A stretch of DNA of 64,000 nucleotides from NCBI GenBank assembly GCA_902826615.1, contig CADEFN010000003.1, forward strand, positions 124,001 to 188,000, read 5' to 3'. A program made the translations under genes and the position numbers. This document shows positions 25,406 to 54,434 of this stretch, in pieces. Origin of the DNA: an uncultured Gemmatimonadota bacterium (lineage in GTDB: Bacteria > Gemmatimonadota > Gemmatimonadetes > Gemmatimonadales > Gemmatimonadaceae). Every line of letters begins with the position of its first letter. Positions within the stretch are counted from its first letter, which is position 1. The notes beneath the pieces were generated by a model. That model was given only the letters and a program-made list of their open reading frames with translations. It did no database searches and had not been told where the DNA came from.

Positions 25406-25414
25406 GTATCAAAT

Positions 25415-30206: not shown

Positions 30207-30227
30207 GAGGGCTGGGTGGGAGTCGGT

Positions 30228-35100: not shown

Positions 35101-35107
35101 GGGGCGT

Positions 35108-35416
35108 TCAGTTTCCACGAGGCACCGCCGGTCGGGGAATTCGCACTTGTTGCCGATCGGTTGGCACCCGCAAGCCGAGCTTGCGCTCCACCACGGGCGC
35201 GAGTTCGGGAAGGCTGGAGGCCAGACCAATGTCGCTGATAAGACGCGCGCGCTCCGCGACCAGGCTGGTGCGGCGTTCTTCGAGGGCGTGCAGCGCCCCG
35301 GCGCGTCGGGCGCCATAACTGCGCCTCACGATGACCGCGCTCGCCACCGCAAGAAAGGCGACGAGCACCATCGCGACGCGCACCCGGCCGCGGGCGGCTA
35401 CGCTGCGCTTCGCCAT
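35108..35416 (-). CDS. ftsL: FtsL-like divisome protein
   Basis: 102 residues: a basic cytoplasmic start (MAKRSVAARGRVRV), one transmembrane helix (AMVLVAFLAVASAVIV), then a short periplasmic coiled coil (ALHALEERRTSLVAERARL). The sequence is weakly conserved; size, topology and position between rsmH and ftsI identify it. It overlaps the end of rsmH by 19 bases. Confidence 0.8.
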   Translation of the reverse strand: MAKRSVAARGRVRVAMVLVAFLAVASAVIVRRSYGARRAGALHALEERRTSLVAERARLISDIGLASSLPELAPVVERKLGLRVPTDRQQVRIPRPAVPRGN

Positions 35417-38753: not shown

Positions 38754-39779
38754 TTACGATGAAGGCGCAGACCCCTCCGATGGGGGTGGCACACTCCCGT
38801 TCACGGAGTCCAGCAGCGCCTGAATCGCCTGCTCCCGCTCGCGACGATCCTGCTCGGCCTCCGCGGCCCGCATCCGCGCCATTCGTTCCCGGTCTCGCCG
38901 CCGTCGCGCCACGTACAGGGGCCCGACCATCAGCAACAGCACGAGCGCCCCAAGCGACACATCGGCAAAAAGCGCGAGACCGCCATACCGACTCCGAGTG
39001 CGACTCCGCCACAGATCCTCGAAACGACTCAGGGTCAGGCCGTATCCGCGACGAAGGGCGGCATCGAGACTCCGGGACTCGCGCCAATACTTGAAGAGCA
39101 GCGTAAGTCCGCGTTCCGAATCGAGTTGCGCGAGTTCCGCCACGGCCCGGTACGAAAGAGCGTAGGCCGCCTCCGCCCGCCGGCTACCACCCAGAAAGCC
39201 GGAATCGAGCGCCGCGAAGGTCCGGAAGCCGCCGAGTGCGAGACCAATGTTGGCGGCCAGAACCTGTTCCCTGTCCCACTCCTGGGCCGCGAACGATGCA
39301 TAGCCCTCATCGAACCATCGGGGGACGGCACCACCGAGATGTTCATGAAGAGCGAGGTGCGCCAGTTCGTGACGAAGGACACGTATCGGGTCACCGGCCG
39401 ACGACGGCGCGCTTCGTCCCTGCATGACAATGCGACGCTCGGCGGGCCAGGCAAAGGCTGCCCCCCACTCCGGGGCCCCGTTCCCGATGGCGTCCCGAAA
39501 GGCGGCACCGTCGGGGGCGATGACCACCAGCACCGAGTCGCGGGGCCGCGGGAGACCGGGAAAGGAGTCGTTGGCCGCCGCCCGCACCAGGAGCGAACTG
39601 GCCAACACACTGTCCGATCGGTAGGCAACCATGGTCACCCGCCCCAGCACCTGCCGCTGCGGCCGTTCCTGCGCGGCCGTTAGGCGCGTGGCCGCCATGC
39701 CTATCACCAGGGCGACTACCGCGGCGGCTCGCCTCCAGCGTCGACCTGTTGCAGCAGTTCGGCGCAACGCTTCGCCCAT
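38754..39779 (-). CDS. Exported peptidase-MA-like metalloprotease
   Basis: About 341 residues from MGEALRRTAATG; a start at 39815 is possible. Basic N-terminus and hydrophobic segment (AAAVVALVIGMAATRLTA) form a signal peptide or anchor. The gluzincin site is HELAH with a downstream glutamate in PRWFDEGYASF, so zinc protease activity is likely. A C-terminal transmembrane helix (ALFADVSLGALVLLLMVGPLYV) precedes a charged coiled tail rich in Arg/Glu. It overlaps the end of the upstream TPR gene by 64 bases, hence co-expression. Substrate unknown. Confidence 0.75.
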   Translation of the reverse strand: MGEALRRTAATGRRWRRAAAVVALVIGMAATRLTAAQERPQRQVLGRVTMVAYRSDSVLASSLLVRAAANDSFPGLPRPRDSVLVVIAPDGAAFRDAIGNGAPEWGAAFAWPAERRIVMQGRSAPSSAGDPIRVLRHELAHLALHEHLGGAVPRWFDEGYASFAAQEWDREQVLAANIGLALGGFRTFAALDSGFLGGSRRAEAAYALSYRAVAELAQLDSERGLTLLFKYWRESRSLDAALRRGYGLTLSRFEDLWRSRTRSRYGGLALFADVSLGALVLLLMVGPLYVARRRRDRERMARMRAAEAEQDRREREQAIQALLDSVNGSVPPPSEGSAPSS

Positions 39780-40570
39780 GGATTGAACTTGTTCGTTTGC
39801 GCGCCGCCGCGCCACGCTCCCTTTGCCGCCTCTTTGTCGCCGCCAAACCAGAAGGCCCGTCCGAGTTCGTAATGTGCCTCCACCAGGTTGGGGCCCAGCT
39901 TGATGCTCTTCTGGAAGAAGTTCTGCGCGTCCTGGTACATCTCGCGTTCCAGGTAGAGCAATCCCAGATAGTAGTGCGCGTAGAGGGTGGCCTTCCGGTC
40001 GTTGTCCAGACGAATGGCCTTCGACAGGTGCTCGATGGCCTCACCGAAAATGCGCTTCTTGAGGCAGATATACCCGACGTTGATCCGGGCCAGCGAGTTC
40101 TGCGGTTCCTTCATGAGCACGCGCTGGAAGTACAGCAGCGCGTCGTCATACTGCGCCTGCAGCATGAGGGTCCAGCCGAGGAGCGACATCGCCTGCGGAT
40201 CGTTGGGCGCCAGTTCAAGGGCCCGTTCGAGCGCGGTCCGTGCCCCGGCGTGGTCGCCTAACGACATGAGGCTCCATCCTTTTTCGACAAAGGTGGAGGC
40301 GTTGAGGTGATCCTCGCGCGATGGTCCGGGCGCCGGGGCCGGCGCTTCGGGTGCCGAATCGTCGGGGGCCAGGTCTTTCCACGCCTGCACAAGCGCCTTG
40401 ACCTGCTCCTTGAGCTGTTCGAGCGTCTGGACCTCGCGATCCACGGCCCGATACAGCCCGATTATGTCGGCCTTGAGCTGGTCACGGCGCGCGCCGGCAT
40501 CACGCGACTGCAGCGCCTCCTGCAGCACCGCGTAGGCCGACACCAGTGTTTCGGAACCCGTCTCAGCCAT
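39716..40570 (-). CDS. Cytoplasmic TPR protein
   Basis: About 284 residues from the ATG at 40570 (MAETGSETLVSAYAVL). An N-terminal helical/coiled part (DIIGLYRAVDREVQTLEQLKEQV) and a Pro/Ala linker lead to about four TPRs (STFVEKGWSLMSLGDHAGARTALERA, AQYDDALLYFQRVLMKEP, YLEREMYQDAQNFFQKSI). No signal peptide. It overlaps the end of the cheW gene by eight bases, so it is the distal part of the chemosensory locus and may be a scaffold for it. Confidence 0.7.
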   Translation of the reverse strand: MAETGSETLVSAYAVLQEALQSRDAGARRDQLKADIIGLYRAVDREVQTLEQLKEQVKALVQAWKDLAPDDSAPEAPAPAPGPSREDHLNASTFVEKGWSLMSLGDHAGARTALERALELAPNDPQAMSLLGWTLMLQAQYDDALLYFQRVLMKEPQNSLARINVGYICLKKRIFGEAIEHLSKAIRLDNDRKATLYAHYYLGLLYLEREMYQDAQNFFQKSIKLGPNLVEAHYELGRAFWFGGDKEAAKGAWRGGAQTNKFNPWAKRCAELLQQVDAGGEPPR

Positions 40571-41045
40571 GTGCCGCCTGCCCCGCCAGGTCGCCAATCA
40601 CCAGTCGTTCGTCGCTGGAAAAGAGCACACGGGGATCGATGCACAGAATGGTGTCGGCCCCGCGCTTGAGCGCGCCGACAACCAGTCCACCCGCACGGTC
40701 GCGTACCATCGGCGGGGGCGAGACCAGTTCGGTGCTGGAGTACACCCGCACATCGAGCACCTGGTCCACCATCAGTGCACACCACTCGGCGTCGAGCGAG
40801 AGGAGCAGGAGACGCGTGAGAAGCCCCGGCGACGCGACCTGCGGTGACAAACGATCTCGCACATCCACGACCGGGACGAGGCGTTCGTCGAGTTCAATGA
40901 CCCCGGCAATCCACGCGGGAAGCCGTGGTACATGACGTGGCGTGGTATGCCGCACCACACGCTCCACATGCGCGACGTCGATCCCGAAGAGCCCATCATC
41001 GACACGAAACACCACCACCCGTGACAGGGTGTCGAGCGCACTCAT
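40563..41045 (-). CDS. cheW: CheW-like adaptor protein (first of three)
   Basis: About 160 residues from the ATG at 41045 (MSALDTLSRVVVFRVDDGLF), a single CheW domain: FGIDVAHVERVVRHTTPRHVPRLP, WIAGVIELDERLVPVVDVRDRL, ALMVDQVLDVRVYSS. It would bridge receptors and CheA. Its start overlaps the stop of the next cheW gene by four bases. The window has three cheW genes that differ clearly in sequence. Confidence 0.88.
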   Translation of the reverse strand: MSALDTLSRVVVFRVDDGLFGIDVAHVERVVRHTTPRHVPRLPAWIAGVIELDERLVPVVDVRDRLSPQVASPGLLTRLLLLSLDAEWCALMVDQVLDVRVYSSTELVSPPPMVRDRAGGLVVGALKRGADTILCIDPRVLFSSDERLVIGDLAGQAAHG

Positions 41046-41551
41046 GTGGTCACGCCTCGCAAGGCGATCGCCCCGGCGGCCACCAGGGCCCGGGCATCGA
41101 TGATGGCGGTGAGCACGGTCTCGTCCCAATGCACCGCGAGCAGAAAGTCGTCGGCGTCGTACGGTGGTGGACCAAGCGTAGACAGGTCGAGGAGCACCAC
41201 ATCATCGACGTCGTCCACCAGGAGCCCGAGTCGCGCATCGCCGCGCCGCATGACCAGCACACTGCGCGAGCAGGCGCCGTCGACGCCGAGCAAGGTGCCG
41301 GCGTGGACCACACCTAACGATCCCTCGCCGTACCGGCAGACCCCAGCCACCGCCGCGGGAGCGCCTGGCACGGGGGTGATATCCGCGGATTCGAGCACTT
41401 CCTCCACCGCCCGCACATCCACGCCAAAACGTTCGTCGCCCAGCGCAAAGAGAAAGAGCTCGGCGAGACCATGACGACCGCGCACCCGATCGCGAAAACG
41501 CACCGGAGAGCCGTCGTTAGGTGCTGGAATCGTCGTAGGGGTGAATGGCAT
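41042..41551 (-). CDS. CheW-like adaptor protein (second of three)
   Basis: About 169 residues from the ATG at 41551; an in-frame GTG at 41605 is an alternative and neither has a clear ribosome site. A divergent CheW domain: LFLFALGDERFGVDVRAVEEVLESADITPVP, VAGVCRYGEGSLGVVHAGTLL, LGLLVDDVDDVVLL. It lies 68 bases after cheB. CheW and CheV-type adaptors share this fold; no receiver domain is present, so CheW-like. Confidence 0.8.
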   Translation of the reverse strand: MPFTPTTIPAPNDGSPVRFRDRVRGRHGLAELFLFALGDERFGVDVRAVEEVLESADITPVPGAPAAVAGVCRYGEGSLGVVHAGTLLGVDGACSRSVLVMRRGDARLGLLVDDVDDVVLLDLSTLGPPPYDADDFLLAVHWDETVLTAIIDARALVAAGAIALRGVTT

Positions 41552-41619
41552 TTCGGCGGGCGTGGAGTGTCTGTGCAAGGACCAGTGAGACGAGCGAGCC
41601 GTCACGGGGTATGGCGATG

Positions 41620-42708
41620 TCAGCCCCGTGCGCGCGCTGGTGATTCAGCGCACAGGGCGCGGAGCACGTCCGGGAGTGCATCGGGAGTGGCCACTTCGTC
41701 CGGTTCGAGGAGTTGCAGTACAGCCTGAGGCATTCCGGCCACCACGCAGCTCTCCGGTGTTTGGACCACGACACAACCGCCGCGCTCCCTCGTGGCCCGC
41801 GCACCGGCGGCACCATCTCGGCCCATCCCCGTGAGCACGACCGTCACCAGAGCGTGACCGAATGACCGACTGGCTGACTCGAGACAGATGTCCGCCGCAG
41901 GGCGCACACCATGTACCGCCGCCGCATCCGAAAATCGCAGCCGAGCCTCTCCTGGCCTGCCATCGATGATGGTGTGGATTCCCCCGGGGGCGACGTAAAT
42001 GTGAGCGCCAACCAACGGCATGCCATCCACAACTTCGGACACAGGCATGGTGCCAAGTTCGTTGAGGCGCCTGGCAAAGCTTCCAGTGAAACTCGCGGGC
42101 ATGTGCTGCACGACCACCCATGCCGTGTCGGGCATGACCGGGAGTGATGGAAGCAACTCGGTAAGCGTGCGTGGCCCTCCCGTCGAGGCCGCTATGACAA
42201 TCAGTCGCGTCGCCGGAAGTGCCGTGACCGCAGCGAGCGGTGTCAGCCCAGGCGTCTTTCGCCATGGGCGCGCCGGCGCACGGCGTGGCGGATCGGCCCG
42301 GCCCTGCAAGGCGGCGTGCAGCGCCTGCGTGAGTCGTCGCCGTAACGTTTCGAGATCGAGCGCGCTGTCACACGACGGCTTTCGCACGAAGTCGACGGCA
42401 CCGAGCTCGAGAGCACGAAGTGCCAGGTCCTCTCCGGCCGCGTCCTCACGCCCGGTCAGGACAACCACGGGCCGTGGGCATTCGCTCATGATGTAGCCGA
42501 GCGCATCGAGCCCGCCGAGGCCCGGCATCTCGAGGTCGAGCGTGACGACAGCGGGCAAAAGGGCATGAACGAGGCGCACGGCCTCGGCTCCGTCAGCCGC
42601 TTCTCCCAGCACCGTGTAGCCTGCGTCGTCGCGGACCACGTCAGCCACCACTCGCCGGATGAATGGCGAGTCGTCGACCACCAGAACCCCGGGAGACTCA
42701 GAGCGCAT
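41620..42708 (-). CDS. cheB: Protein-glutamate methylesterase CheB
   Basis: Removes methyl groups from chemoreceptors when phosphorylated by CheA. 362 residues from the ATG at 42708 (MRSESPGVLVVDDSPFIRRV). Receiver domain with the DD pair, phospho-acceptor Asp in TLDLEMPG and Lys in FVRKP. Linker, then the esterase domain with serine in IAASTGGP, histidine in VVQHMPASFTG and aspartate in LTGMGRDGAAG. It overlaps cheD by 11 bases. No cheR or receptor gene is in the window. Confidence 0.95.
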   Translation of the reverse strand: MRSESPGVLVVDDSPFIRRVVADVVRDDAGYTVLGEAADGAEAVRLVHALLPAVVTLDLEMPGLGGLDALGYIMSECPRPVVVLTGREDAAGEDLALRALELGAVDFVRKPSCDSALDLETLRRRLTQALHAALQGRADPPRRAPARPWRKTPGLTPLAAVTALPATRLIVIAASTGGPRTLTELLPSLPVMPDTAWVVVQHMPASFTGSFARRLNELGTMPVSEVVDGMPLVGAHIYVAPGGIHTIIDGRPGEARLRFSDAAAVHGVRPAADICLESASRSFGHALVTVVLTGMGRDGAAGARATRERGGCVVVQTPESCVVAGMPQAVLQLLEPDEVATPDALPDVLRALCAESPARARG

Positions 42709-43183
42709 GTTCGCCGTGCCGCATCGACACCACCCGCACCGCACCGGTCGCGACGTCGAAGAACACACTGCGGCCATAGTCGCCACCGACATCTTCGGCT
42801 AGCAGTGGAATGCCGGCGCGTTCGAGCCCTTCGCGCACGGCGACGATGTTGCGCTCCCCCATGTTCACGCCGCTGCCCAGCAGTGGCCCGAACATCGAGG
42901 CGCCGCCAACGATGCGTGCGACAATGCGCGATCCAGCGCCATACCGCCGCATCTCGTCGACCAGAAACGGCGTGGCGGTGCTGGCGAACTTTGCGGGTTT
43001 GGTGCGATCGAGCGAAAGAGACTCGTGCGGCAGCAGCACGTGGGCCATCGCTCCCACCTTTGCCTCGGGATCATGCAGCATGATGGCGACACACGAGCCC
43101 AGCCCTACCGACGAGAGCACCCCTCCGTCACGCAACACCGCAAAGCCCGCGACCGGGACATGCGTCGGCAGCCCGGCTGACAT
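42698..43183 (-). CDS. cheD: Chemoreceptor glutamine deamidase CheD
   Basis: 161 residues from the ATG at 43183. Catalytic triad visible: Cys31 in SVGLGSCVAI, His48 in GAMAHVLLPH, Thr69 in ASTATPFLV. FGPLLGSGVNMGERN and GGDYGRSVFFD are typical. CheD deamidates receptors and, in systems with CheC, binds CheC to boost its CheY-P phosphatase activity; a cheC gene is present at 51.1-51.7 kb. Confidence 0.93.
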   Translation of the reverse strand: MSAGLPTHVPVAGFAVLRDGGVLSSVGLGSCVAIMLHDPEAKVGAMAHVLLPHESLSLDRTKPAKFASTATPFLVDEMRRYGAGSRIVARIVGGASMFGPLLGSGVNMGERNIVAVREGLERAGIPLLAEDVGGDYGRSVFFDVATGAVRVVSMRHGEHAL

Positions 43184-43185
43184 GG

Positions 43186-44793
43186 TCAGCCGCTCGCGAC
43201 TGCCGCCATGGCCGCCGCCCGCTCGGTGCGCAACGCCCGCGAGCGCTCCCAGCAACGCACGGCGTCTTCACGTTCCCCGCGGCCATCACGGATGTTACCA
43301 AGCTTCTGCCACACGTCCGGGCCGAGATCGGGCGCCAAACGCACCGCACGTGCGAAACATTCGAGGGCGTCATCCAGCCGACCAGCGGCGTAATGCAAGT
43401 CGCCCGCGTTCTTGTGGAGAGTCGCCATCCCCGGCCCCTCCAGCAACCCGCGATCGAGGACGGCGCTGGCTTCGGCGTCGCGTCCGCGCAGCTCCAGGGC
43501 CACGGCCAGGTTGTTGGCGAGCGACGCCGCATGCGGATGCACCGAGACGCCCTCCCCCAGCAAGGCAATGGCCCGGTCGGCATCCCCAAGTTGCAGCGCT
43601 GCAATCCCGGCGTAGTGATACCAGGGCGCAGGCAGTGGGCCCTTGCGGTCGGTGCGTGCAGCGAGGTCGCGCAATGCGCGATCGGCGGCGGCCGTTTCGC
43701 CACGCTGAAGCGCGAGGGCCGCACCCGTCATCACGACGGTGAGCTCCTGCGGCAGCGCACGTGCGGCCATGTTGAGTGCGGCACGTGCCTCATCGGGGCG
43801 CCCGGCCTTCTCCAGCGCATAGGCCAGGTTGGCGTGCGCGGCCCCGCCATGCGGAGTGCGAGCGGCCGACGCCGAAAAGGCGCGAATGGCCTCGTCAAAT
43901 GCGCCTTGCCTGGCTGCGATCAGGCCGAGGTGGAACTCCCCGAGCGCGTCACCGGGTCGCAGATCGAGCACCCGGCGAAACTCACGCGCGGCCTCGTCCA
44001 GCATTCCTGACTTGTAGAATGCCACACCGAGATTGCGATGCTCGGCGACACGCGCCTCTTCGCTGGGGGTATCCGCCGTCTTGCGTCGCCCCACACGATG
44101 AATGAACCCCGCGCTGGCCAGCCCGAAGAGCGACTTGCCCACTTCGAACTCGCTGAGACCCGAGATGTCCACCAGGTCGTGGACGTCGCGAACACCATCG
44201 AGGAGCGGGATAAGGGTATCCTGCTCCATCGTCAGCGCCACACGCGAGGCTGCCAGATGCGCGCGGTCGAGCGCAAACACACTGTCGAGACTCGGGATCT
44301 TCTTCTCGATCAGACTCCACTCGTCAATCCGCCGTGCGCCCTCGAGCAGCAATGACTCGGGGTTGATGGCGACCAGGAAGTCCTGGGCATCAGGCACCAG
44401 GTCGGCCTCGAACGAAAAGGTGCCCTGGGTCCAGGTGAAGAGGAAATAGACGGCCTCCTCGATCTGTCGCTTGATGTACTGATGCAGTTCCTCGCGCGAG
44501 ATGAAACCACGCGAAATGAGGATTTCGCCGAGCCGGCGATCGGGTTCGCCAGCCTGCAGCGCGACCGCGGCATCGAGGTCGGCACGGGAGAGCACCCCAT
44601 TCGACACCAGCAGATCGCCAAGACGATCCCGGCGGTTCACGATGGAGGCAAACGAGATGCGGCCACGGTCAAAATACACGCTGCCGAAGGCGTTGCGATG
44701 CGTGACCGAAAGGCAGCCGGACTTCTTGCCCATCGCCAGGAGCTGCAGCACGTCAGGGAGGCTGGCCTCGCTGAGCGATCCGCGAATCGCCAT
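43186..44793 (-). CDS. DUF4388 (PATAN)-TPR signalling protein, long form
   Basis: About 535 residues. N-terminal DUF4388/PATAN domain (MAIRGSLSEASLPDVLQLLA ... GSVYFDRGRISFASI), then a helical GspE-N-like segment (LGDLLVSNGVLSRADLDAAV ... RRLGEILISRGFISREEL), a middle beta/helical region ending in a winged-helix-like part (LIPLLDGVRDVHDLVDISG), and seven or so TPRs to the end. The same order is found in the shorter protein at 47.3-48.4 kb. PATAN domains occur in regulators near MglA-type GTPases; molecular role unproven. ATG overlaps the stop of the DnaA-like gene by one base. Confidence 0.8.
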   Translation of the reverse strand: MAIRGSLSEASLPDVLQLLAMGKKSGCLSVTHRNAFGSVYFDRGRISFASIVNRRDRLGDLLVSNGVLSRADLDAAVALQAGEPDRRLGEILISRGFISREELHQYIKRQIEEAVYFLFTWTQGTFSFEADLVPDAQDFLVAINPESLLLEGARRIDEWSLIEKKIPSLDSVFALDRAHLAASRVALTMEQDTLIPLLDGVRDVHDLVDISGLSEFEVGKSLFGLASAGFIHRVGRRKTADTPSEEARVAEHRNLGVAFYKSGMLDEAAREFRRVLDLRPGDALGEFHLGLIAARQGAFDEAIRAFSASAARTPHGGAAHANLAYALEKAGRPDEARAALNMAARALPQELTVVMTGAALALQRGETAAADRALRDLAARTDRKGPLPAPWYHYAGIAALQLGDADRAIALLGEGVSVHPHAASLANNLAVALELRGRDAEASAVLDRGLLEGPGMATLHKNAGDLHYAAGRLDDALECFARAVRLAPDLGPDVWQKLGNIRDGRGEREDAVRCWERSRALRTERAAAMAAVASG

Positions 44794-46601
44794 TAGCGCA
44801 TCTCCTCCATCAGGCGGCCCGGAGCTTCTGGCCACTCGAGGATCATCTTCTCGGCGTCAAGTCCGGCAACGCCGAGCGCGATTCCACCGGGAGGCGTCAG
44901 GCGTGTCACCCGGACGCCGTCGGGTGGCGTCGCATCTCGGACACCCCGGATATCGATGTTGGGCGCTGCCGCTTCGTCGCCGTCCGGCACCGGGGTCTGC
45001 CGTCCGGTGCGCTCATTCACCGATGGCGCCACCAGATGCACGACACGTCCACCCTCGATCCACGCCCGGAGACCGGCGGAGATGCCGACATAGGCGCCTA
45101 ACGGACGATCGCTGGTCAGGAGGACGGGGCGCCCGGCGTCGCTATAGATCTGGCCCAGCGCCAGGAGTTCATCGTGGGCGCGTGTCTGCCGGTCAAAGGC
45201 CTGGAAGCCGTCGACCACCAGGGCGTCGGCCAGGCGATACCGGGCGCGCCAGCGTTCGAGCTGACCGGCATGCATCGCCACCAGCAGTTCGTCGAGCCAG
45301 GCCGCTCCCGAGACGATGGCAACACGTTTCCCGCTGTCCTCGTCCCCGAGCAGCACCCGCGCAGCGGCATGGGCCACGTGCGTCTTGCCGGCGCCACTTT
45401 TGCCGTGCACAAACAATGGCGTGCCAACCTCACCGTGCTGTTCCACCAGGTCGGCGACCGCCTGGATGGCGGCGCGGTTCCCCGCCGTGCGAACGAGGTC
45501 CGTGAGCTGCCAGCGGTTGTCGGGGGGCGGCAGCGGCTCGGCGGCAGCGACCGCATGTGCGAGCAAGGTCTCGGCCTCCCGCAATCGTTCCGGATCACGG
45601 AAGGCGGCATGTCCGGTCAGCGAGCGGTCCACGCGAATGGCCACACCCTCGAGGGTGCGCAGCCGATCCGCGACGGCGGCAAACGAGCTATCGAGTTCCT
45701 CGACGTCGGGCGCTTCGGGCAGCTCGAGGGCGCGCTCGAGCACCGCGGTGCGGAAGCCCTGACCCGACCACCAGGCGATGCGCGCCGTGAGATGCGTGCG
45801 CCAGGCCTCGACCGATGCCGCTACACTGGTGACGACGTCCTGCAGAAAGGACTCGAACTCATCGGCGCGCTGCGGCAGCTGGGCGGTGCCAAGCACCTGC
45901 CATACTTCGTTTGGCGCGAGCAGCGCACCGGCCACCGCCTGATGAGCCACAAGCTGATTGAGCGCGCCCTGCAGCTCACGCACGTTGCCTAACGGCGAGC
46001 GGGCCAGCTGTTCGAGGACGCCCCCACCGAAGGTGATCCGGCGTGTGGAGGCGAAGCGGCGGAGCAACTCGGTGCGCGCCTCCTGGTCGGGCGGACCGAT
46101 ATCGACCGTCAGGCCACCGGAGAGACGGTTGAGCAACCGCTGGTCGACATCGCGAATGTCGGCGGGGGCGCGGTCGGAGCCCATGACGATCTGACGACCC
46201 GCGCCCTGCAGCACATTGAAGACCCGGAGGATCTCGCTCTGCATCTCGCGGCGTCCCGACAGCCCCTGCACATCGTCCAGCAGCAGCACACCGATGTCCT
46301 GATAGCGACGCTTGAAGGCGTCGGCCTGGCTGCCCCGGATGGCGGCATCGAGTTCGTCGGCGAAGTCGTCGAGCGTGATGTACCGGGTCGGCATGTCCGG
46401 ATGCCGCTCGGCCATGGCATGGGCAATGGCCGTGAGCAGATGCGTCTTGCCGAGGCCGGCGCCGCCGAAGACAAACAGCGGGTTGTAGGCCGTGCCCGGT
46501 GCATCGACTACGGCCCGCGCCGCCGATGCCGCCAGGCGATTGGCGGCGCCGACGACAAAGGTGTCGAAGCGCAGATGGGGGTCGAGGATGGACTCGGACA
46601 C
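44793..46601 (-). CDS. Tandem DnaA-like AAA+ protein lacking a DNA-binding domain
   Basis: 602 residues, GTG start. Residues 1-230 match domain III of replication initiator DnaA: FDTFVVGAANRLA, Walker A GGAGLGKT (46-53), Walker B LLLDD (106-110), sensor 1 GSDR (141-144), arginine-finger region RLLNRLSGGL (R159), sensor 2 GNVRELQGALN (205-215). A helical segment (240-360) follows, then a second, weaker AAA+ module: Walker A GKSGAGKT (400-407), degenerate Walker B LVVDG (461-465), TSDR (496-499), and a C-terminal tail. Domain I and the domain IV helix-turn-helix of DnaA are absent, so it is not the initiator. It is coupled with mglA and PATAN genes, suggesting an ATP-driven signalling or assembly role. 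Confidence 0.88.
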   Translation of the reverse strand: MSESILDPHLRFDTFVVGAANRLAASAARAVVDAPGTAYNPLFVFGGAGLGKTHLLTAIAHAMAERHPDMPTRYITLDDFADELDAAIRGSQADAFKRRYQDIGVLLLDDVQGLSGRREMQSEILRVFNVLQGAGRQIVMGSDRAPADIRDVDQRLLNRLSGGLTVDIGPPDQEARTELLRRFASTRRITFGGGVLEQLARSPLGNVRELQGALNQLVAHQAVAGALLAPNEVWQVLGTAQLPQRADEFESFLQDVVTSVAASVEAWRTHLTARIAWWSGQGFRTAVLERALELPEAPDVEELDSSFAAVADRLRTLEGVAIRVDRSLTGHAAFRDPERLREAETLLAHAVAAAEPLPPPDNRWQLTDLVRTAGNRAAIQAVADLVEQHGEVGTPLFVHGKSGAGKTHVAHAAARVLLGDEDSGKRVAIVSGAAWLDELLVAMHAGQLERWRARYRLADALVVDGFQAFDRQTRAHDELLALGQIYSDAGRPVLLTSDRPLGAYVGISAGLRAWIEGGRVVHLVAPSVNERTGRQTPVPDGDEAAAPNIDIRGVRDATPPDGVRVTRLTPPGGIALGVAGLDAEKMILEWPEAPGRLMEEMR

Positions 46602-46606
46602 GGGAC

Positions 46607-47221
46607 CTAACGAACCGGCATGGCCGCCGGTGGGGCGGCGCTGAGACGCTGCAGGACCAGCTGCGAGATCTTGCGCAGGGTCTCGAACACTCCGACCCCC
46701 GCCAGCGCATCAGCCGGGAAACTCGGCACGCCCCGGAAGTTCAGGGTGTCGTCGAGCTCCCGCGGGGTCTCGATGAGCTCTCGCGGCAAATCCTGCTTGT
46801 TGTACTGGAGGACGAGTGGGAGGCCCCGAACGTCAACGCCCTGCTCCGCCAGCACCTCGTGCATGTCGCGCAGGCTCTCGACGTTCTCCTCCCGTTGCCG
46901 CCGCTGACTGTCCGCCACAAACACCACCCCGTCGGCGCCTTGCAGCACCAGCTTTCGCGTCGAGCGGTAGAAGATCTGGCCCGGGACGGTGTAAAGCTGG
47001 ATCCGGGTGGCGAAGCCGGAGATGGTCCCGAGATCGAGCGGGAGAAAATCGAAGAAGAGCGTGCGCTCGTTCTGTGTCGCCAGGGACACCATCGAGCCAC
47101 GGCGATTGGCCGGAACGCGATCGTAGATGTAGTGCAGATTGGTGGTCTTGCCGGAGCGACCCGTGCCGTAGTACACGATTTTGCACGTGAGTTCACGTGC
47201 CGCGTAGTTCACGATCGGCAT
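46607..47221 (-). CDS. mglA: MglA-type small GTPase
   Basis: 204-residue Ras-like GTPase of the bacterial MglA family, which sets cell polarity and drives gliding or type IV pilus switching in known species. P-loop GTGRSGKTT (19-27); the PM3 motif is TVPGQ with Thr78 where Ras has Asp, as in Myxococcus MglA; NKQD (141-144) gives guanine specificity. YRSTRKLVLQGADGVVFVADSQ is typical of the family. Its stop codon TAG lies within a CGTTAGG motif, five bases before the GTG of the DnaA-like gene. The cognate GAP MglB (roadblock fold) is not encoded nearby. Confidence 0.95.
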   Translation of the reverse strand: MPIVNYAARELTCKIVYYGTGRSGKTTNLHYIYDRVPANRRGSMVSLATQNERTLFFDFLPLDLGTISGFATRIQLYTVPGQIFYRSTRKLVLQGADGVVFVADSQRRQREENVESLRDMHEVLAEQGVDVRGLPLVLQYNKQDLPRELIETPRELDDTLNFRGVPSFPADALAGVGVFETLRKISQLVLQRLSAAPPAAMPVR

Positions 47222-47254: not shown

Positions 47255-48397
47255 TCAGGCATGCTGCCCTGCCAGGACGGTCACCAGCTGTCGGGCGTGC
47301 ACGATGGCCTCGGCGGCCTGTGCGGCAAGCGGAGTCCCCGGTGCGGAAGCAACCAGACGCTCCCACCGCGCCACCGCGGCGTCCAGCTCCCCGCGTCGCG
47401 CGCAGGCCCGAGCCATGTCCATCAGACCGGCCGGGTGATCAGGGTGCAGGACGAGGGCGCGCTCCAGCTGCTCCATGGACTCCGCCTCGCGTCCAAGCCG
47501 CGACAGGATCCGTGACAACGTCCAGCGTGCTTCGGCATCGTCGGGTGCCATGGCCACCGCGGTCGCAGCGTGCGACGCGGCGGCGTCCCACTGGTCCAGT
47601 GCCATCGCCTCACGCGCATCCGCCAGGCAGTCAGTCACTTGTCTGCGAACCGGTGTCGGCGGTGTGAGGGCTGCCGGCTCGCCACAGACAATGATGCCCG
47701 TGGTCACAAGGCCGAATGCGATGCGGCCGACTTCGAAGTCGGATCGGTTGAGCGCCGTCGCGATGGCGCGCAGGTCGCGCTCGCCGTCCATGGCCGCCAG
47801 CACTTCCCATTCGTTCGGGCGGAGGTCGAGACGTGGTGCTGGACCATCGTCAGGCAGGTCTGCCAGGCGGGGCACCACACCCAGGTGGGGTATGGTCTCG
47901 GAGATCTGCGTCCACTCGTCGAGCCGGCGGGCCCCTTCCATGAGCAATGACTCGGTGGGCACCTCGATGGTGTCATCACCCGTCACCTCGCTTTCATCAC
48001 TTTCGATGAAGGAGAAGAACCCTTCCTGCCAGCTGAGCAACTCGAACACCACCACCTCGATCTGGTGCATCACGTGGCGGCGCAGTTCACGTGCGGAGAG
48101 CGCACCTGCGTCCACGAGCAGTTCCCCGAGCCGACGCGAGGCCCCCGCCTGCTGGGCGGCACGGGCGCGCGCGAGGTCGGCCTCGGTGATGCGCCCGGCG
48201 CGCAACAGCAAGGTGCCTAACGGGTGCGGATTGGAGCGGATGCTCGCCCCCACCACCCGGCCGCCTCTGAAAAAGACGGTCCCCTCGTTGTCGCGCAGCG
48301 CCGAGCTGACGCGCAGGCGCCCGGTCTTGCGCGACAGGTCGAGGAGCTGGAAGACATCGTGGATACTCAGCTCACGCAGCGGTCCCTCGATCGCCAT
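47255..48397 (-). CDS. DUF4388 (PATAN) signalling protein, short form
   Basis: About 380 residues from the ATG at 48397 (MAIEGPLRELSIHDVFQLLD). Same architecture as the long form: PATAN domain (GTVFFRGGRVVGASI), GspE-N-like helices (LGTLLLRAGRITEADLARAR ... RRLGELLVDAGALSARELRR), winged-helix-like region (NEWEVLAAMDGERDLRAIATAL), then only two or three TPRs. It probably arose by duplication with the long form. The ATG shares one base with the stop of the TPR gene upstream; mglA follows. Confidence 0.8.
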   Translation of the reverse strand: MAIEGPLRELSIHDVFQLLDLSRKTGRLRVSSALRDNEGTVFFRGGRVVGASIRSNPHPLGTLLLRAGRITEADLARARAAQQAGASRRLGELLVDAGALSARELRRHVMHQIEVVVFELLSWQEGFFSFIESDESEVTGDDTIEVPTESLLMEGARRLDEWTQISETIPHLGVVPRLADLPDDGPAPRLDLRPNEWEVLAAMDGERDLRAIATALNRSDFEVGRIAFGLVTTGIIVCGEPAALTPPTPVRRQVTDCLADAREAMALDQWDAAASHAATAVAMAPDDAEARWTLSRILSRLGREAESMEQLERALVLHPDHPAGLMDMARACARRGELDAAVARWERLVASAPGTPLAAQAAEAIVHARQLVTVLAGQHA

Positions 48398-51108
48398 CAG
48401 GCCGCCTCCCATGCGCGAACAGGTTGGGTCAGCTGGCGCCGCCACTCAGTGGCGGTGCGGGCATCGCGGGCCGCACGGCGCGCGTATTCACCCGCCGGTT
48501 CCAGCGCCATCACGCGCTCCCAGCACCGCATGGCCTCGTCCCAGTCATACCGCTGCGCCGCCAGCACGCCCTTGAAGTACAGCGCCACCACCTGCGAGGG
48601 GTCAAAGCGCAGAATGCGTTCAAAGGCAAAGCGGGCGTCGGGAAGCCGGTCCAGCACAAACAATGATTCACCTAACGAAGCAAGCACCTCGAGATCGTAC
48701 GGCCGCGCCGCCAGGAAGGCCGCCAGCGACTCCACCGTGTCTGCGGCGCGTCCCGAGGTACGCCGCAACTTTGCGAGGGCCAGCACCGCGTCGCCACGCA
48801 ATGGATCGTCGTCGCACACCTGCGCGAGCAATGACTCGGCCTCACGATCCTCCCCGCGTTCGTACAGCAGGGCCGACAGCTCGATGGCGTAGTCATGATT
48901 GGTGGTGTCGCGCTTGAGTGCTTCGCGCCAGCCGTGCTCGGCGGCCGCAAGGTCACCCTGCGAACGCGCGAGCCGCGCGATGGTGGCATGGATCTCCGCC
49001 CGGTCCGGAGCGAATGAGGCGGCCCTGTGCAGGGCATCCCACGCGGCGTCGTGCTGATGTGCGTCGTGCAACACCTCAGCGACCAGCAGCAAGGACGGCA
49101 CGTCATCAGCCGCATGCCGAGCAAGCCATTCGGCGGCCGGCACCGCCTCCTCAAAGCGCCGCAGCACCGACAACGCCCGTGCTTCTCCCTGCACCGCGCC
49201 GCGTGCGTCTGGTGAGAGAATGCGCGCTTCCCTAAAGCGTTCGAGCGCCTCACCGGCGGCCCCGCGGGCGAGATAGGTCTCTCCCTGGAGGATCAACCCC
49301 TCCGCTCGCGGTGCGCCAGCGAAGAGTGCCGAGCGCGCTGCCGCCAATGCTTCCTCGTGGTCGCCTCGTGCCAGCAGCGACCGAGCTTCGCGATAAGGGT
49401 CATCCGCGCGCCCTGTCGGCGCCTCGGCGACCGCAGGCGCAGGATTGATCTCGTCGAAGAGTGCCTCGAGTGTGCGCTCCTCAAAGACAAACTCGTCGAC
49501 GGTTTCCTTGCGCGCCGACGCCGACACCTCGATCGCGATCGCCAGGGGTGTCTCACCCTGATCGAGCTCGATGGCCAGCTCAAAGCGTGGTTCGGTGTAG
49601 TAGGGGTCGAGGGCAAGCGCGCGCTGCGTCTCGCGGAGTGCGCCGTCGTGATCACCGAGACTCGTGAGGGCAAAGCTGAGGTTGTAGTGCGCCTCAGCGT
49701 ACCCTTCGCGTGCCTCGATGGCACGCCCGAAGGCGTTGCGAGCATCTTCGAATCGTTTGAGCTGCGACAGGACGAGCCCCACGCCGTTCCAGGCCGTGGC
49801 GTGTTGTGGCGAGGAGTCGAGCACATGCCGATAGGCCTTGAGTGCCGCTCCGTGGGCGCCCTGCCGTGCGAGGACGAGCGCGAGGTTCAGTTGTGCCTTG
49901 AGCAGCGAGCCATCAATCGCGGCGCTCTCCTGCAGGGCCGCTGCAGCGCGGACCGCGTCGCCCGACTGGAAGGCGGCAACACCGAGGTTGTTCCAGGCCA
50001 CGGCGTACCGGGGATTGGCATCGAGCGATCGCTCGTACGACGACAGCGCCGCGTCGTACTCACCGGCATGGTGCAGGGCGACTCCCCGCTCGTTCCACCA
50101 GCGCGGGTTTTCGGGCTGTTCGGCGAGGAGCTGGTCGTACAGGGCGCGCGCGGCAGGCATTTCGCCAAGGAGGAGATGCGCTTCGGCCATCGCCTGCTGC
50201 ACCAGAGTCGCGTCTTCGCCCCGCTCCAGCGCGCTCCGGTACTCCTTGATGGCTTCGGCCAGGTAGCCTTTGTGCCGGAAGGCCAGCCCGAGCGCATAGT
50301 GGGCCATCTGCTGCCCCGAAGCAGCTTCGGTGAGCCCCCGAGCCTCACGAGCCTCACGGGCATGCTGCCACGATCTGGCATCGAAGCGTTCGAGCGAGAG
50401 ACTGGCGTGTGCCCGCCCTAACGAGGGATTGATGCGCAGGGCACGGCCGGTCGCTTCACGCGCCTCCTCGTGACGACCCTGATCACCAAGCACGAAGCCC
50501 AGGAGATACAGCGCATCGGCGTCACCGGGAGCGAGGGCAACACTGCGCTCGAGGGCGACGCGCGCTTCCTCGTTGAGACCACGCTGATACGCCACTTCGC
50601 CGAGCTGGAAGAGGACCGACGGATTGTCGGGCTCGACTTCGAGGGCGTGGTGCAGCCACCGCGCCGCGGCCTCGAGGTCGCCGCACTTGGCTTCGGCGGT
50701 CGCCACCTGCCGGATCACGCGCACGTCATCGGGATCGTCGCGGAGCAAGACGCCAAAAGCGTCGAGCGCCTGCGTGACATCGCCCAGCAGCAGAAAGGTC
50801 CGGCCCAGCTCCCAGCGGGCAAAGCGGTCCGCAGGTGCCGCAGCCAGACGCGCGCCGAGTTCTTCGACGCGCTGGTCGTAGTACCCGCCGGTGAAATACG
50901 CAATCTCGAGGTTGCGCTGCGCGACGGTCATGCGCGGATCGAGTTCGAGCGCGCGCGTGAACGACGCCACCGCCTCGTCGATCATGCCCTTGGTGAAGTA
51001 GAGCACCGCGAGGTTGTTGTGCGCGCCAGGGTCCCACGGATCGACACGATCCGCGAACGAACGAAGGATGGCGCGTTCCCGCTCCTTCGGAGGCGCTACA
51101 CCTGGCAT
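48397..51108 (-). CDS. Large TPR scaffold protein
   Basis: 903 residues from the ATG at 51108, made almost wholly of TPR units (for example PGAHNNLAVLYFTKGMIDEAVASFTRALELDP, NEEARVALERSVALAPGDADALYLLGF, EYDAALSSYERSLDANP). A less repetitive insert near 540-590 (SASARKETVDEFVFEERTLEALFDEINPAPA) divides two TPR arrays. No signal peptide or membrane helix, so cytoplasmic. It sits 19 bases after cheC and overlaps the short PATAN gene. A scaffold joining the Che proteins to MglA/PATAN/AAA+ partners is a reasonable inference, not shown. Confidence 0.75.
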   Translation of the reverse strand: MPGVAPPKERERAILRSFADRVDPWDPGAHNNLAVLYFTKGMIDEAVASFTRALELDPRMTVAQRNLEIAYFTGGYYDQRVEELGARLAAAPADRFARWELGRTFLLLGDVTQALDAFGVLLRDDPDDVRVIRQVATAEAKCGDLEAAARWLHHALEVEPDNPSVLFQLGEVAYQRGLNEEARVALERSVALAPGDADALYLLGFVLGDQGRHEEAREATGRALRINPSLGRAHASLSLERFDARSWQHAREAREARGLTEAASGQQMAHYALGLAFRHKGYLAEAIKEYRSALERGEDATLVQQAMAEAHLLLGEMPAARALYDQLLAEQPENPRWWNERGVALHHAGEYDAALSSYERSLDANPRYAVAWNNLGVAAFQSGDAVRAAAALQESAAIDGSLLKAQLNLALVLARQGAHGAALKAYRHVLDSSPQHATAWNGVGLVLSQLKRFEDARNAFGRAIEAREGYAEAHYNLSFALTSLGDHDGALRETQRALALDPYYTEPRFELAIELDQGETPLAIAIEVSASARKETVDEFVFEERTLEALFDEINPAPAVAEAPTGRADDPYREARSLLARGDHEEALAAARSALFAGAPRAEGLILQGETYLARGAAGEALERFREARILSPDARGAVQGEARALSVLRRFEEAVPAAEWLARHAADDVPSLLLVAEVLHDAHQHDAAWDALHRAASFAPDRAEIHATIARLARSQGDLAAAEHGWREALKRDTTNHDYAIELSALLYERGEDREAESLLAQVCDDDPLRGDAVLALAKLRRTSGRAADTVESLAAFLAARPYDLEVLASLGESLFVLDRLPDARFAFERILRFDPSQVVALYFKGVLAAQRYDWDEAMRCWERVMALEPAGEYARRAARDARTATEWRRQLTQPVRAWEAA

Positions 51109-51127
51109 CACCCCTGCCCCGGCGTCG

Positions 51128-51761: not shown

Positions 51762-53597
51762 TTAGAGGAGACCCCCCGCATCGAGGATCAGTGCCGCGGT
51801 CCCGTCCGGCAGAATGGCCGCGCCGGAGAATCCGGCCGACATGCCGCGGACCAGGTCGAATGACTTCACCACTATGTCCTGCTGTCCCACCAGGCGATCG
51901 ACCAGCACCGCCGCCCGCCGGTCGGTCGCCTCGACAATGACGATTTGCTGCCCCTCGGGGTCGCGCCCTGCTGCACCCACGAGGGCGCGCAGGGAGTAGA
52001 GGGGGAGCACCTGGCCGCGGAGCACAAAGACCGGTCTTCCCTGGACCCGGCGCAGGGCCCCCGCCGCCGGCTGTACCGTCTCGCTGATATGGGTCAGCGG
52101 GAGGGCGTATGACTCCGCCCCCACCTGTGCGATGATGGCCGGGATTATGGCCAAAGTGACCGGCAGCCGCAGCTGAAAGACCGTTCCCTTCCCCTCGACC
52201 GAGGAAAACTCGACGGCTCCTCCGAGCCCTCGAACCTTCGCCAACACGGCATCGATTCCGACGCCGCGGCCGCTCACTTCGCTCACCTGTTCGGCGGTCG
52301 AGAACCCCGGACGGGCGATGATGCGCAGCACCTCGTCGTCCGAGAGCATTTCGGTGTCGTCGGTGACCCAACCCAAACGCCGCGCCTTGGCCAGGACGCG
52401 CTGCCGGTCCACCCCACGACCGTCGTCGGCAACCACAACGACCACCGAATTGCGCTCGCGTCGTGCCATGAGGAGCACGCGCCCCTCGACCGCCTTGCCG
52501 CCACGGACGCGCGCGTCCGCTGGCTCGATGCCATGGTCGACAGCATTCCGGAGGAGGTGAACCAGCGGATCGGCAACCTGTTCGAGCAGCGATCGATCGA
52601 GTTCGATCTCGCGGCCCTCGACCACCAGCACCGCCTCCTTGCCAGCAGCCCGCGCCGCCTCACGCACAACACGCGGGAAGCGGTCGAAGACCTGCCAGAC
52701 CGGGACCAGTCGGCTCCCGATCACCCCATCCTGCAGCTCCCCGATCAAACGCCCCGCCTTCGCCACCGCTTCGTCGAGGGCGGGATCACCGTGGCGAGAA
52801 GCAACCACCTGCAACCGGTCGCGCATGGTGACCAGCTCACCCACCAGGTCCATCAGCCCGTCGAGTCGGCGCGACTCGATACGCACATACTTCTGCAGCG
52901 GCGCCTGAAGATCACCGGTGTTCCAGGTGGCGTCGACGGAGAGGGGTGTCTGCCGCACCTCGTCGCGTGGCACGACCTCCACCAGACTCGACACAAACCC
53001 GGCGGCACGCGCCGCATCTCCAAGGACCTCGATCGCCTCGGCACTGCGCAGCTGCACGGTGAACTCCCCGGTGAACTGCGCGCTTTCCATGCCCGCTACA
53101 TCCGGCTCGACTCGCACGATCTCGGCGACGCGGGCGAGTCGTCCAACGATGAGTTGCGCCCGGGCGCCGGGAAGCGGGGTGCCAGGATCGAGAACGATCT
53201 GCAGCACGCGTGTTGTCCCCTGCGCGGGTGCAGCCGGGACAGCCAGTCGTGTCAGGAGCGTGGAAATGTCGAGCGCACTTTCCCGACCGGTGGTCGAGGC
53301 AGCCACCGCGGATGCCAGCGCGTCGGTGGCCTGCAACAGCGTTTCGATGCTCGGTGGCGTTAGGCTCTCCTGCCCCGAACGGACACGATCGAGCAGCGAC
53401 TCCATCGCATGACTCAACGTGCTGACGGTGCCATATCCCATGGCACCGCCCATGCCCTTCAGCGTGTGAACCGAACGAAAGAGTGCGTCGAGCGCCGAGC
53501 GATCAGCAGGAGCCGATTCCAGCTCCAGGAGCGCATGCTCCATGGCCGTGAGATGATCACGGCTCTCAGTGGCGAAAAGCTCCGCGTATTTTGACAC
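51762..53597 (-). CDS. cheA: Chemotaxis-type histidine kinase CheA
   Basis: 611 residues, GTG start. HPt domain with phospho-acceptor H44 in RSVHTLKGMGGAMGY; a P2-like region (TRVLQIVLDPGTPLPGA); dimerization helices (VRIESRRLDGLMDLVGELVTMRD); HATPase with PLVHLLRNAVDHGIE, VADDGRGVD and GRGVGIDAV; C-terminal CheW-like regulatory domain (PLTHISETVQPAAGALRRVQGRP). No receiver domain is fused, and a separate CheY lies just upstream. A complete, presumably active kinase. Confidence 0.97.
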   Translation of the reverse strand: MSKYAELFATESRDHLTAMEHALLELESAPADRSALDALFRSVHTLKGMGGAMGYGTVSTLSHAMESLLDRVRSGQESLTPPSIETLLQATDALASAVAASTTGRESALDISTLLTRLAVPAAPAQGTTRVLQIVLDPGTPLPGARAQLIVGRLARVAEIVRVEPDVAGMESAQFTGEFTVQLRSAEAIEVLGDAARAAGFVSSLVEVVPRDEVRQTPLSVDATWNTGDLQAPLQKYVRIESRRLDGLMDLVGELVTMRDRLQVVASRHGDPALDEAVAKAGRLIGELQDGVIGSRLVPVWQVFDRFPRVVREAARAAGKEAVLVVEGREIELDRSLLEQVADPLVHLLRNAVDHGIEPADARVRGGKAVEGRVLLMARRERNSVVVVVADDGRGVDRQRVLAKARRLGWVTDDTEMLSDDEVLRIIARPGFSTAEQVSEVSGRGVGIDAVLAKVRGLGGAVEFSSVEGKGTVFQLRLPVTLAIIPAIIAQVGAESYALPLTHISETVQPAAGALRRVQGRPVFVLRGQVLPLYSLRALVGAAGRDPEGQQIVIVEATDRRAAVLVDRLVGQQDIVVKSFDLVRGMSAGFSGAAILPDGTAALILDAGGLL

Positions 53598-53611: not shown

Positions 53612-53974
53612 CTATCCAAGCACTCGCTGCACGGCCTCGAGCACACGGCTCGGCTGAAACGGCTTGACCACGAAGTCGCGGGCGCCAGCCTGGATCGCCT
53701 CAACGACCAGGGCCTGCTGACCCATGGCGCTACACATCAGCACCTTGGCCGCCGGGTCCTTCTGGGTAATCTCGCGGACCGCGTCAATGCCGCCCATGTC
53801 CGGCATGACAATGTCCATGGTCACCAGATCGGGACGCAGCTCGCGATACTTCTGCACCGCCTGCGCTCCGGTTTCGGCTTCACCGACGATCTCGAATCCG
53901 GCCTGCGACAAGATGTCGCCCAGCATGGTCCGCATGAAAATCGCGTCGTCACAAATCAAGACAGAGTGGCTCAC
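53612..53974 (-). CDS. cheY: Response regulator CheY
   Basis: 120-residue single-domain receiver: D9/D10, phospho-acceptor D54 in VTMDIVMPDMGG, Ser in MCSAMG and K104 in FVVKPF. GTG start. As the only free-standing receiver in the locus it is the likely target of CheA and substrate of CheC. Its output (flagellum, pili, MglA pathway) cannot be told from sequence. Confidence 0.95.
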   Translation of the reverse strand: MSHSVLICDDAIFMRTMLGDILSQAGFEIVGEAETGAQAVQKYRELRPDLVTMDIVMPDMGGIDAVREITQKDPAAKVLMCSAMGQQALVVEAIQAGARDFVVKPFQPSRVLEAVQRVLG

Positions 53975-54014: not shown

Positions 54015-54434
54015 CTATGCGAGCGACGACCTCACGAGCTTTGGCACATCCAGCTCTATGACGACCATTTCGCCAGAATGTCCCACACCCCGCACGACGG
54101 ATGTATCCGCCTCGTCCGGCGCGGTCACGGAGGCGGCGGGCTCATCCATCGGGATAACGTCTCGCACATCGTCCACAAGAAGGCCGAGGGTCTTCCCGTC
54201 GCTCACCACAACCAGGACGTCGACGGCCTCGTTACCGGGGACGCCACGCAGGCGATGGCAGAGGTCCATGACTGGAAAGAGCTGGCCCCGCACGTTGATC
54301 AGACCACGAATGGACGGTTCTGCGCCAGGAAGGCGCGTCACCTGGGACGGCAGCGTTGTGATTTCGCGCACAAGCTCCGACGGGAGGGCGTAGAGCGTCT
54401 CTGCCACTGACACCACAAGGAGCTGACGGCTCAC
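54015..54434 (-). CDS. cheW: CheW-like adaptor protein (third of three)
   Basis: 139 residues, GTG start overlapping the rluD stop by four bases. CheW domain: LPSELVREITTLPSQVTRLPGAEPSIRGLINVRGQLFPVMDLCHRL, TLGLLVDDVRDVIPM. It is the most canonical of the three CheW proteins and the first gene of the chemosensory set in transcription order. Confidence 0.92.
   Translation of the reverse strand: MSRQLLVVSVAETLYALPSELVREITTLPSQVTRLPGAEPSIRGLINVRGQLFPVMDLCHRLRGVPGNEAVDVLVVVSDGKTLGLLVDDVRDVIPMDEPAASVTAPDEADTSVVRGVGHSGEMVVIELDVPKLVRSSLA

Follow-up and report, generated by a model that had tools for sequence, protein, structure and literature searches.

A tandem DnaA-type AAA+ protein encoded within a chemosensory-MglA-PATAN operon of Gemmatimonadota

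Introduction

AAA+ proteins of the DnaA clade are known to act in replication, replication control, helicase loading and transposition. In E. coli DnaA, residue R285 drives head-to-tail assembly of the ATP-bound protein, and V211 and R245 bind single-stranded DNA (PMC5742627). Cell polarity in Myxococcus xanthus is set by the MglA-MglB-SgmX-FrzS-SopA network, and a study of it names no DnaA-type AAA+ component (PMC11580455). PATAN regulators of type IV pili include PixG/PilG/TaxP2 of Synechocystis, where the pilus motor PilB is a binding partner of PATAN domains (PMC10519157). The main text of a 2014 context analysis places PATAN genes near mglA and mentions no DnaA-like gene (PMC4316618).

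Here we describe D2, a DnaA-like protein encoded in an uncultured Gemmatimonadota bacterium within a stretch of 64,000 nucleotides (the window; assembly GCA_902826615.1, contig CADEFN010000003.1, positions 124,001 to 188,000). D2 is encoded together with mglA, PATAN and che genes, as are MglA-dependent regulators of polarity and type IV pili. No description of D2 turned up in the literature searched.

Results

D2 contains two AAA+ modules of DnaA type

The initial annotation described the D2 frame as a DnaA-like protein with two AAA+ modules that lacks domains I and IV. We divide it as follows.

44793..46601, minus strand: D2, tandem DnaA-domain-III protein (GTG start, 602 aa plus stop)
45882..46586, minus strand: module 1, residues 6-240, complete DnaA domain III with base and lid
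45531..45863, minus strand: helical linker domain, residues 247-357, about 110 aa, diagnostic of the D2 family
45012..45518, minus strand: module 2 base, residues 362-530, DnaA-type AAA+
44877..45011, minus strand: segment in place of the module 2 lid, residues 531-575, predicted structure of low confidence
44796..44867, minus strand: conserved C-terminal tail, residues 579-602, GLDAEKMILEWPEAPGRLMEEMR, candidate docking peptide

This architecture was borne out. Pfam Bac_DnaA matched D2 in two stretches (2.7e-72) starting at residue 6; the protein begins straight at domain III, without domain I. The DnaA helix-turn-helix (HTH) is also absent, as the sole Bac_DnaA_C match in the genome belongs to the true dnaA. 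That gene, for which the initial annotation had proposed a search, lies elsewhere in the genome, at G000:C1, where an open frame of 516 aa encodes both the DnaA ATPase and the HTH domain. A six-frame genome search with Bac_DnaA gave 172.5 bits for module 1 and 76.7 bits for module 2; since both exceed the cut-off of 23 bits, the match of module 2 is not a chance one.

DnaA models scored best on both modules. Among NCBIfam models, DnaA reached 325.8 bits versus 104.7 bits for Hda, which has a cut-off of 194.8 bits, and all loader models stayed far below their own cut-offs. The predicted structure of module 1 superposed on B. subtilis DnaA with a Z score of 31.9, an rmsd of 1.5 and 39% identity, and the module corresponds to domain III of DnaA (B. 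subtilis 8bv3/8btg, T. maritima 2z4r) in fold and motifs. Hda resembles D2 as a DnaA-like AAA+ protein without domains I and IV, but it has one module instead of two, is encoded at a different locus and gave a Z score of 21 versus 32 for DnaA. A QL-type clamp-binding motif, sought by eye in the N-terminus of D2 (MSESILDPHLRFDTF), was not found. The DnaC/DnaI/IstB clade shares a DnaA-related AAA+ base with D2 but scored weakly (IstB 57.8 bits in Pfam and Z 18; DnaC Z 16.7); unlike these loaders, D2 carries box VII and a lid of DnaA type, and it lacks a helicase- or transposase-binding N-terminal domain. PHROGs matches of D2 were mostly DnaC-like helicase loaders, and PADLOC returned generic ATPase matches only.

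In a tree of the modules, Hda and DnaC sat on very long branches, which makes their placement unreliable, and the D2 modules did not group with any non-DnaA AAA+ family. When Hda and DnaC were left out, a branch of less than conclusive support (95/64) separated the D2 modules from DnaA. Profile scores, structural superposition and the tree thus agree with the DnaA ancestry initially proposed for both modules, which are of DnaA type and not of Hda or DnaC type.

Module 1 of the window protein carries Walker A (GLGKTH), Walker B (LLLDD), box VII R281, the arginine finger R285 and sensor-2 R334, as initially read. Module 2 has an intact Walker A (GAGKTH), but its Walker B reads DG (D236G), the arginine finger is absent (R285W), R281G and L290R are further changes and the lid is missing. 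The segment replacing the lid carries a TPVPxGDEAAAPNID motif conserved within the window's clade. The view of the C-terminal half as a degenerate second copy therefore holds for module 2 itself and has to be amended for its surroundings, as the 110-aa linker precedes it and the tail follows.

Searched against Pfam and PDB, the linker yielded nothing beyond coiled-coil-like or chance matches, and a Foldseek query limited to its model had no hit at E under 1. In the prediction the linker forms a simple bundle of helices that resembles no DNA-binding fold. We dropped the idea of a hidden DNA-binding domain, raised as a possible objection at the outset, on account of this and of the missing HTH match. 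The tail, at the protein end, has the family consensus EKxVxEWPxxxxRxxEE; in the five loci searched, no other operon protein showed this motif.

D2 is embedded in a conserved chemosensory and polarity cluster

In the window, the following genes surround D2.

39716..40597, minus strand: TPR protein closing the conserved cluster
40563..41129, minus strand: cheW
41042..41605, minus strand: cheW
41620..42792, minus strand: cheB
42698..43255, minus strand: cheD
43186..44793, minus strand: PATAN(DUF4388)-TPR protein with an MshE-type c-di-GMP-binding motif (residues 57-110)
46607..47221, minus strand: mglA, Ras-like GTPase of MglA type, directly upstream of D2
47255..48445, minus strand: second PATAN(DUF4388)-TPR protein
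48397..51111, minus strand: large TPR protein, 904 aa
51128..51781, minus strand: cheC
51762..53597, minus strand: cheA
53612..53974, minus strand: cheY-like receiver
54015..54434, minus strand: cheW

The start codon of the PATAN-TPR gene overlaps the D2 stop codon (TAATG). The D2 family was present in 176 of 298 Gemmatimonadota genomes, with one copy each, and all 27 named D2 matches came from this phylum. Relatives were found by a linker scan with an alignment of five close rows; two scans with a more divergent alignment failed to find them, and scanning genome contigs with the window D2 protein alone gave no matches.

D2 typically lies between mglA and a PATAN(DUF4388)-TPR gene within a cheA/C/R/D/B/W-mglB cluster. 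In every named locus that reaches far enough, mglA immediately precedes D2 (23/23) and PATAN-TPR immediately follows it (26/26). This operon, conserved across the phylum, supports the initial proposal of recruitment into a signalling locus. In most lineages D2 stands behind mglB-mglA within the che cluster. In the window and its close relatives no mglB separates the PATAN gene from mglA, and D2 is retained; the window's genome has only two roadblock genes, both outside the cluster. Because PATAN-TPR is the sole kept neighbour of D2 in some families (L048, L050, L113), synteny does not make contact with MglA obligatory. D2 and operon-type MglA co-occurred as 160/16/19/103 (both, D2 only, MglA only, neither) in raw genome counts that ignore kinship. 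The pilT family was found in 175/176 genomes with D2 and also in 102/122 genomes without it, so the link to pili rests on precedent from MglA, PATAN and Che systems.

One lineage without D2 retains mglA and PATAN-TPR; there the MshE-type insert has been lost (8/8), and it is present elsewhere (39/39). Both losses belong to one clade and represent one event on one branch, and we therefore dropped the notion of independently recurring joint loss.

The locus shares with the M. xanthus polarity network the MglA GTPase, TPR proteins, chemosensory proteins, the roadblock protein MglB (in D2 relatives) and type IV pili as presumed output, but its central operon positions are held by PATAN-TPR proteins and D2. 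PATAN near MglA and chemosensory genes is a feature in common with the known PATAN regulators of type IV pili; a difference is that PATAN is fused here to TPR and to a c-di-GMP motif of MshE type.

Module 1 is conserved whereas module 2 decays recurrently

Most D2 relatives possess two modules with intact ATPase motifs. Within the family, loss of the module 2 lid occurred on at least three occasions, and decay of Walker B is recurrent as well. A degenerate module 2 is thus a trait of the window's lineage and not the defining state of the family, and the initial idea that the pairing of an active with a degenerate module is the essence of the protein is not supported in that form. Some relatives have a single module, so the tandem is not required.

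Module 1 of the relatives retains its Walker A lysine and its Walker B aspartate without exception (37/37); R281 is present in 34/37, R285 in 32/37 and the sensor-2 arginine in 34/37. Position 211, I or V in 12/12 true DnaAs of Gemmatimonadota, is mostly His, Asn, Glu or Ala here, and the hydrophobic contact to single-stranded DNA is thereby lost, unlike in DnaA. Because ATPase and arginine-finger residues are conserved and V211 is exchanged, module 1 has probably kept ATP-dependent assembly and lost single-stranded DNA binding. Module 2 of lid-bearing relatives has I, V or L at position 211 in 27/27, R227 in 26/27 and K243 in 25/27, and may bind DNA.

For two closer pairs, dN/dS was 0.06-0.24 in the linker and 0.08-0.14 in module 2, values that are rough given the high dS. 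These pairs include a relative with an altered Walker B. The linker domain and tail are conserved in the family, the tail far outside the AAA+ core. D2 is under purifying selection.

Discussion

D2 combines two ATP-driven cores of DnaA, without the parts that read DNA, with a position inside a chemotaxis and polarity operon; on these grounds the fold of the replication initiator appears to have been put to new use in the control of surface movement in Gemmatimonadota. It differs from DnaA by its second module, the extra helical domain and tail, the lack of domains I and IV and its place in a che/mgl operon rather than at a replication locus, with a normal dnaA in the same genome. Functional support comes from gene context and residue conservation. 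We give an even chance to D2 being a DnaA-derived AAA+ protein that works outside replication, now in a chemosensory-MglA-PATAN module that governs type IV pili, either their polarity or their activity.

In such a role D2 would act as a switch or scaffold that assembles itself in the manner of DnaA and depends on ATP. ATP-bound module 1 would stack head to tail via its arginine finger, as in DnaA, giving a local and reversible scaffold to which linker and tail might recruit MglA and the PATAN-TPR partner with its MshE-type c-di-GMP motif. ATP hydrolysis or input from Che proteins or MglA would dismantle the assembly. Module 2 may originally have been an active second protomer that often decayed to a nucleotide-binding or structural platform, as in the window; the asymmetric oligomer initially suggested from the active and degenerate pair is conjectural. 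The most detailed version, an ATP-controlled, filament-forming scaffold that assembles as a DnaA-like spiral at the pole and acts with MglA-GTP and c-di-GMP-sensing PATAN-TPR to set where or when pili fire, with the recurrently inactive module 2 as built-in cap or platform, is speculative, and we consider it doubtful.

D2 could instead be a DNA-linked regulator that ties motility or polarity to the state of the chromosome or of replication, or a transcription factor of the cluster. The DNA-contact residues kept in module 2 of most relatives would suit this, DnaA itself is reported to be able to act as a transcription factor, and the cluster adjoins cell-wall and division genes both in the window and in L108. 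Yet D2 lacks an HTH and a linker of DNA-binding fold, module 1 has given up its hydrophobic contact, and three lineages, the window's among them, keep the gene although the module 2 lid is gone; the window's module 2 also lacks K243, R281, R285 and L290. We find this reading unlikely. Much the same probability attaches to D2 as a regulator of MglA, be it a nucleotide-exchange or GTPase-activating cofactor or a chaperone, that partly replaces the roadblock protein MglB. D2 follows mglA directly in most lineages, and it is kept in the window and its close relatives, where mglB is missing from that place and the two roadblock genes lie outside the cluster. However, mglB shares the cluster in most D2 genomes, the f5 genomes have D2 without adjacent mglA, the mglA-bearing cluster of some genera lacks D2, and the literature searched contained no AAA+ regulator of MglA.

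Two linked AAA+ modules, one of them often inactive, recall the D1/D2 architecture of p97 in outline, and Foldseek matched p97/NSF chains across both modules, as might be expected of a double-ring machine that remodels or disassembles PATAN-TPR, PilB or a chemoreceptor array. The whole-length superpositions had an rmsd of over 20 Å, reflecting merely two successive AAA+ folds, and we rejected them as evidence. DnaA-clade proteins form spirals, and we know of none with the pore loop pattern of substrate threading, which makes a p97-like activity quite improbable. That D2 is nothing more than a DnaA paralogue with no dedicated role, decaying or kept by chance, might be read from the repeated degeneration of module 2 and the loss of the gene in one clade; the single copy per genome at a conserved position phylum-wide, the low dN/dS of linker and module 2 and the conserved tail render it scarcely credible.

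If D2 is indeed part of pilus control, the DnaA clade would extend to cell polarity and surface motility through a phylum-wide, single-copy and operon-locked derivative. The family would offer a natural series from two active modules through an active module paired with a pseudoenzyme to a single module. D2 would then also represent a missing and testable component of chemosensory type IV pilus control in a phylum for which cell biology is almost lacking.

DnaA ancestry and domain layout of D2

D2 is a 602-aa protein with a GTG start, encoded on the minus strand at 44793-46601. It is built as follows:

Residues 6-240: module 1, a complete DnaA domain III
Residues 247-357: linker, a helical domain conserved across the family
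Residues 362-530: module 2, a second DnaA-type base
Last 24 residues: tail, with the pattern EK-V-W-WP-R-EE

Pfam Bac_DnaA matched D2 at 2.7e-72, and when the whole genome was searched in six frames with this model (cut-off 23 bits), the modules scored separately, module 1 with 172.5 bits and module 2 with 76.7 bits. Among NCBIfam models, DnaA scored 325.8 bits, Hda 104.7, IstB 73.8 and DnaI 44, and the solved structures best matching D2 by sequence are DnaA proteins (top 1.2e-53). The AlphaFold2 model reached a mean pLDDT of 81 with a pTM of 0.43, which makes the relative placement of the modules unsure. Modelled module 1 superposed on B. subtilis DnaA domain III with Z 31.9 (rmsd 1.5 Å, 39% identity) and scored far lower on Hda (Z 21), IstB (Z 18) and DnaC (Z 16.7). 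The true dnaA, for which the initial annotation proposed a search, was found elsewhere in the genome, and it carries the genome's sole DnaA helix-turn-helix domain. Unlike DnaA, D2 lacks domain IV and is not the genome's sole DnaA; nor does it classify as Hda or DnaC. We therefore regard D2 as a new DnaA-derived variant outside all three families. Literature searches, with most subscription journals and preprints outside reach, found no paper combining Gemmatimonadetes, MglA and DnaA and no DnaA-like protein in a che-mgl-type locus.

The linker has nine invariant columns among 25 aligned sequences, is predicted alone with a pLDDT of 90.6 and has no confident relative in Pfam or PDB. The tail pattern is common to one-module and two-module relatives. 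In the window's clade, a stretch carrying the conserved motif TPVPxGDEAAAPxID takes the place of the module-2 lid; its structure prediction has low confidence.

Module 1 keeps the ATPase residues

Residues of both modules were counted against E. coli DnaA numbering, with roles taken from PMC5742627. K178 and D235 are retained in 37/37 module 1 sequences, R281 and R334 in 34/37 and R285 in 32/37; judged by sequence, module 1 thus keeps every residue required to bind and hydrolyse ATP and to make the head-to-tail contact. Two positions conserved in the phylum's true DnaAs are substituted in module 1: V211, the hydrophobic contact to ssDNA, and R227, the arginine of AID-1. Lid-bearing module 2 retains I/V/L211, R227, R281 and R285. 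R245 was left out as a test residue because it varies in the phylum's own DnaAs. The window's module 2 has the Walker A lysine, carries D236G, R281G, R285W and L290R and lacks sensor 2, so that it can be predicted to bind nucleotide at most.

Spread and evolution of the family

The linker profile matched 176 of 298 Gemmatimonadota genomes, with one match per genome in all but one among the matches listed. All 27 named D2 loci, drawn from 84,980 species genomes, belong to Gemmatimonadota; as the scan patterns were narrow, distant relatives may exist in other phyla. Most relatives have two modules with Walker motifs and lid intact in both, and sampled genomes of families f6 and f9 encode a single module with linker and tail. 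Module 2 sequences form one clade (support 98/95 in one tree, 99/94 in another), which places the duplication before the radiation of the two-module families. The D2 modules lie jointly on one side of a branch from DnaA (95/64), a value that hints at their separation as a group. In a tree built without module 2, the module-2 lid was lost in at least three events; Walker B loss requires three changes. With a dN/dS of 0.08 in the L009/L010 pair of loci (rough, given high dS), module 2 is, as far as sequences tell, under purifying selection even with an altered Walker B. In the clade of loci L077, L078 and L079, module 1 and not module 2 evolves faster (branch 1.04 in the module tree), and the HMM scores of the two modules are about the same.

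The D2 gene neighbourhood

In the window the gene order is cheW-cheY-cheA-cheC-TPR-PATAN/TPR-mglA-D2-PATAN/TPR-cheD-cheB-cheW-cheW-TPR, including:

43186-44793, minus strand: PATAN-TPR gene downstream of D2
46607-47221, minus strand: mglA
47255-48445, minus strand: second, upstream PATAN-TPR gene

Among the 27 named loci, mglA lies directly upstream of D2 in 23/23 that extend that far, mglB precedes mglA in 22/22 and a PATAN-TPR gene directly follows D2 in 26/26; cheR usually sits between the latter and cheD. The D2 stop and PATAN-TPR start overlap (TAATG). In sampled f5 family genomes the order is ileS-rluD-D2-PATAN-TPR and mglA is not adjacent; the invariant neighbour of D2 is therefore PATAN-TPR, not MglA.

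Neither mglB nor cheR was seen in the cluster of the window, its genus mate L081 or the near relatives L082 and L085; mglB is still present in L083 and L084. In full-length clusters, two extra genes separate the PATAN gene from mglB (L055:5932-7145); by eye, one product looks like a TPR protein ending in a roadblock-like region and the other like a further roadblock protein. Both genes are missing from the window, as are mglB and cheR. Elsewhere, the window's genome holds a second mglB-mglA pair (G000:C8, around 27222; L102). A conserved 904-aa protein of the cluster (48397-51111), nearly all TPR repeats, may be comparable in kind to Myxococcus SgmX. The che-mgl cluster adjoins a division/cell-wall cluster (20584-36324, minus strand; mraW, ftsI, murE, murF, mraY, murD, ftsW, murG, murC, ftsA and ftsZ, from Pfam and order); by eye, L108 likewise has an mraW-like gene after its che cluster.

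D2 and a motif of its PATAN-TPR neighbour are absent together in one clade

The downstream PATAN-TPR protein has a predicted MshE-related c-di-GMP-binding motif (52.8 bits, cut-off 38); the upstream PATAN-TPR protein falls slightly below (36.1 bits). A clade of genera g5 and g7 has retained mglA and PATAN-TPR and is missing D2. The motif is absent in 8/8 loci of this clade and present in 39/39 elsewhere. When the window's protein was compared with relatives from L108, L109, L110, L115, L116 and L118-L120, the PATAN-TPR proteins of the D2-less clade lacked the MshE-type insert and, in aligned cases, also the last TPR repeats. Because it represents one evolutionary event, the joint absence is a lead, not proof, pointing to a putative binding site.

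A possible role for D2

In Myxococcus, MglA recruits both PilB, the pilus motor, and TPR effectors (PMC11580455); in Synechocystis, PilB is a binding partner of PATAN domains (PMC10519157). PATAN genes were earlier noted near mglA (PMC4316618). Genes of the pilT family occur in 175/176 D2 genomes and likewise in most D2-less genomes. As less likely rival readings, D2 might have a DNA-linked role, regulate MglA or act as a p97-like remodeller. The most economical reading is that D2 is an ATP-switched protein, assembling in the style of DnaA, that organises MglA and PATAN-TPR partners. The ancestry, architecture, conservation and operon setting of D2 are the parts of this reading that the analysis shows. 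In such an ATP-switched assembly, the partners would dock by the linker or the tail, and the assembly may act on pili.
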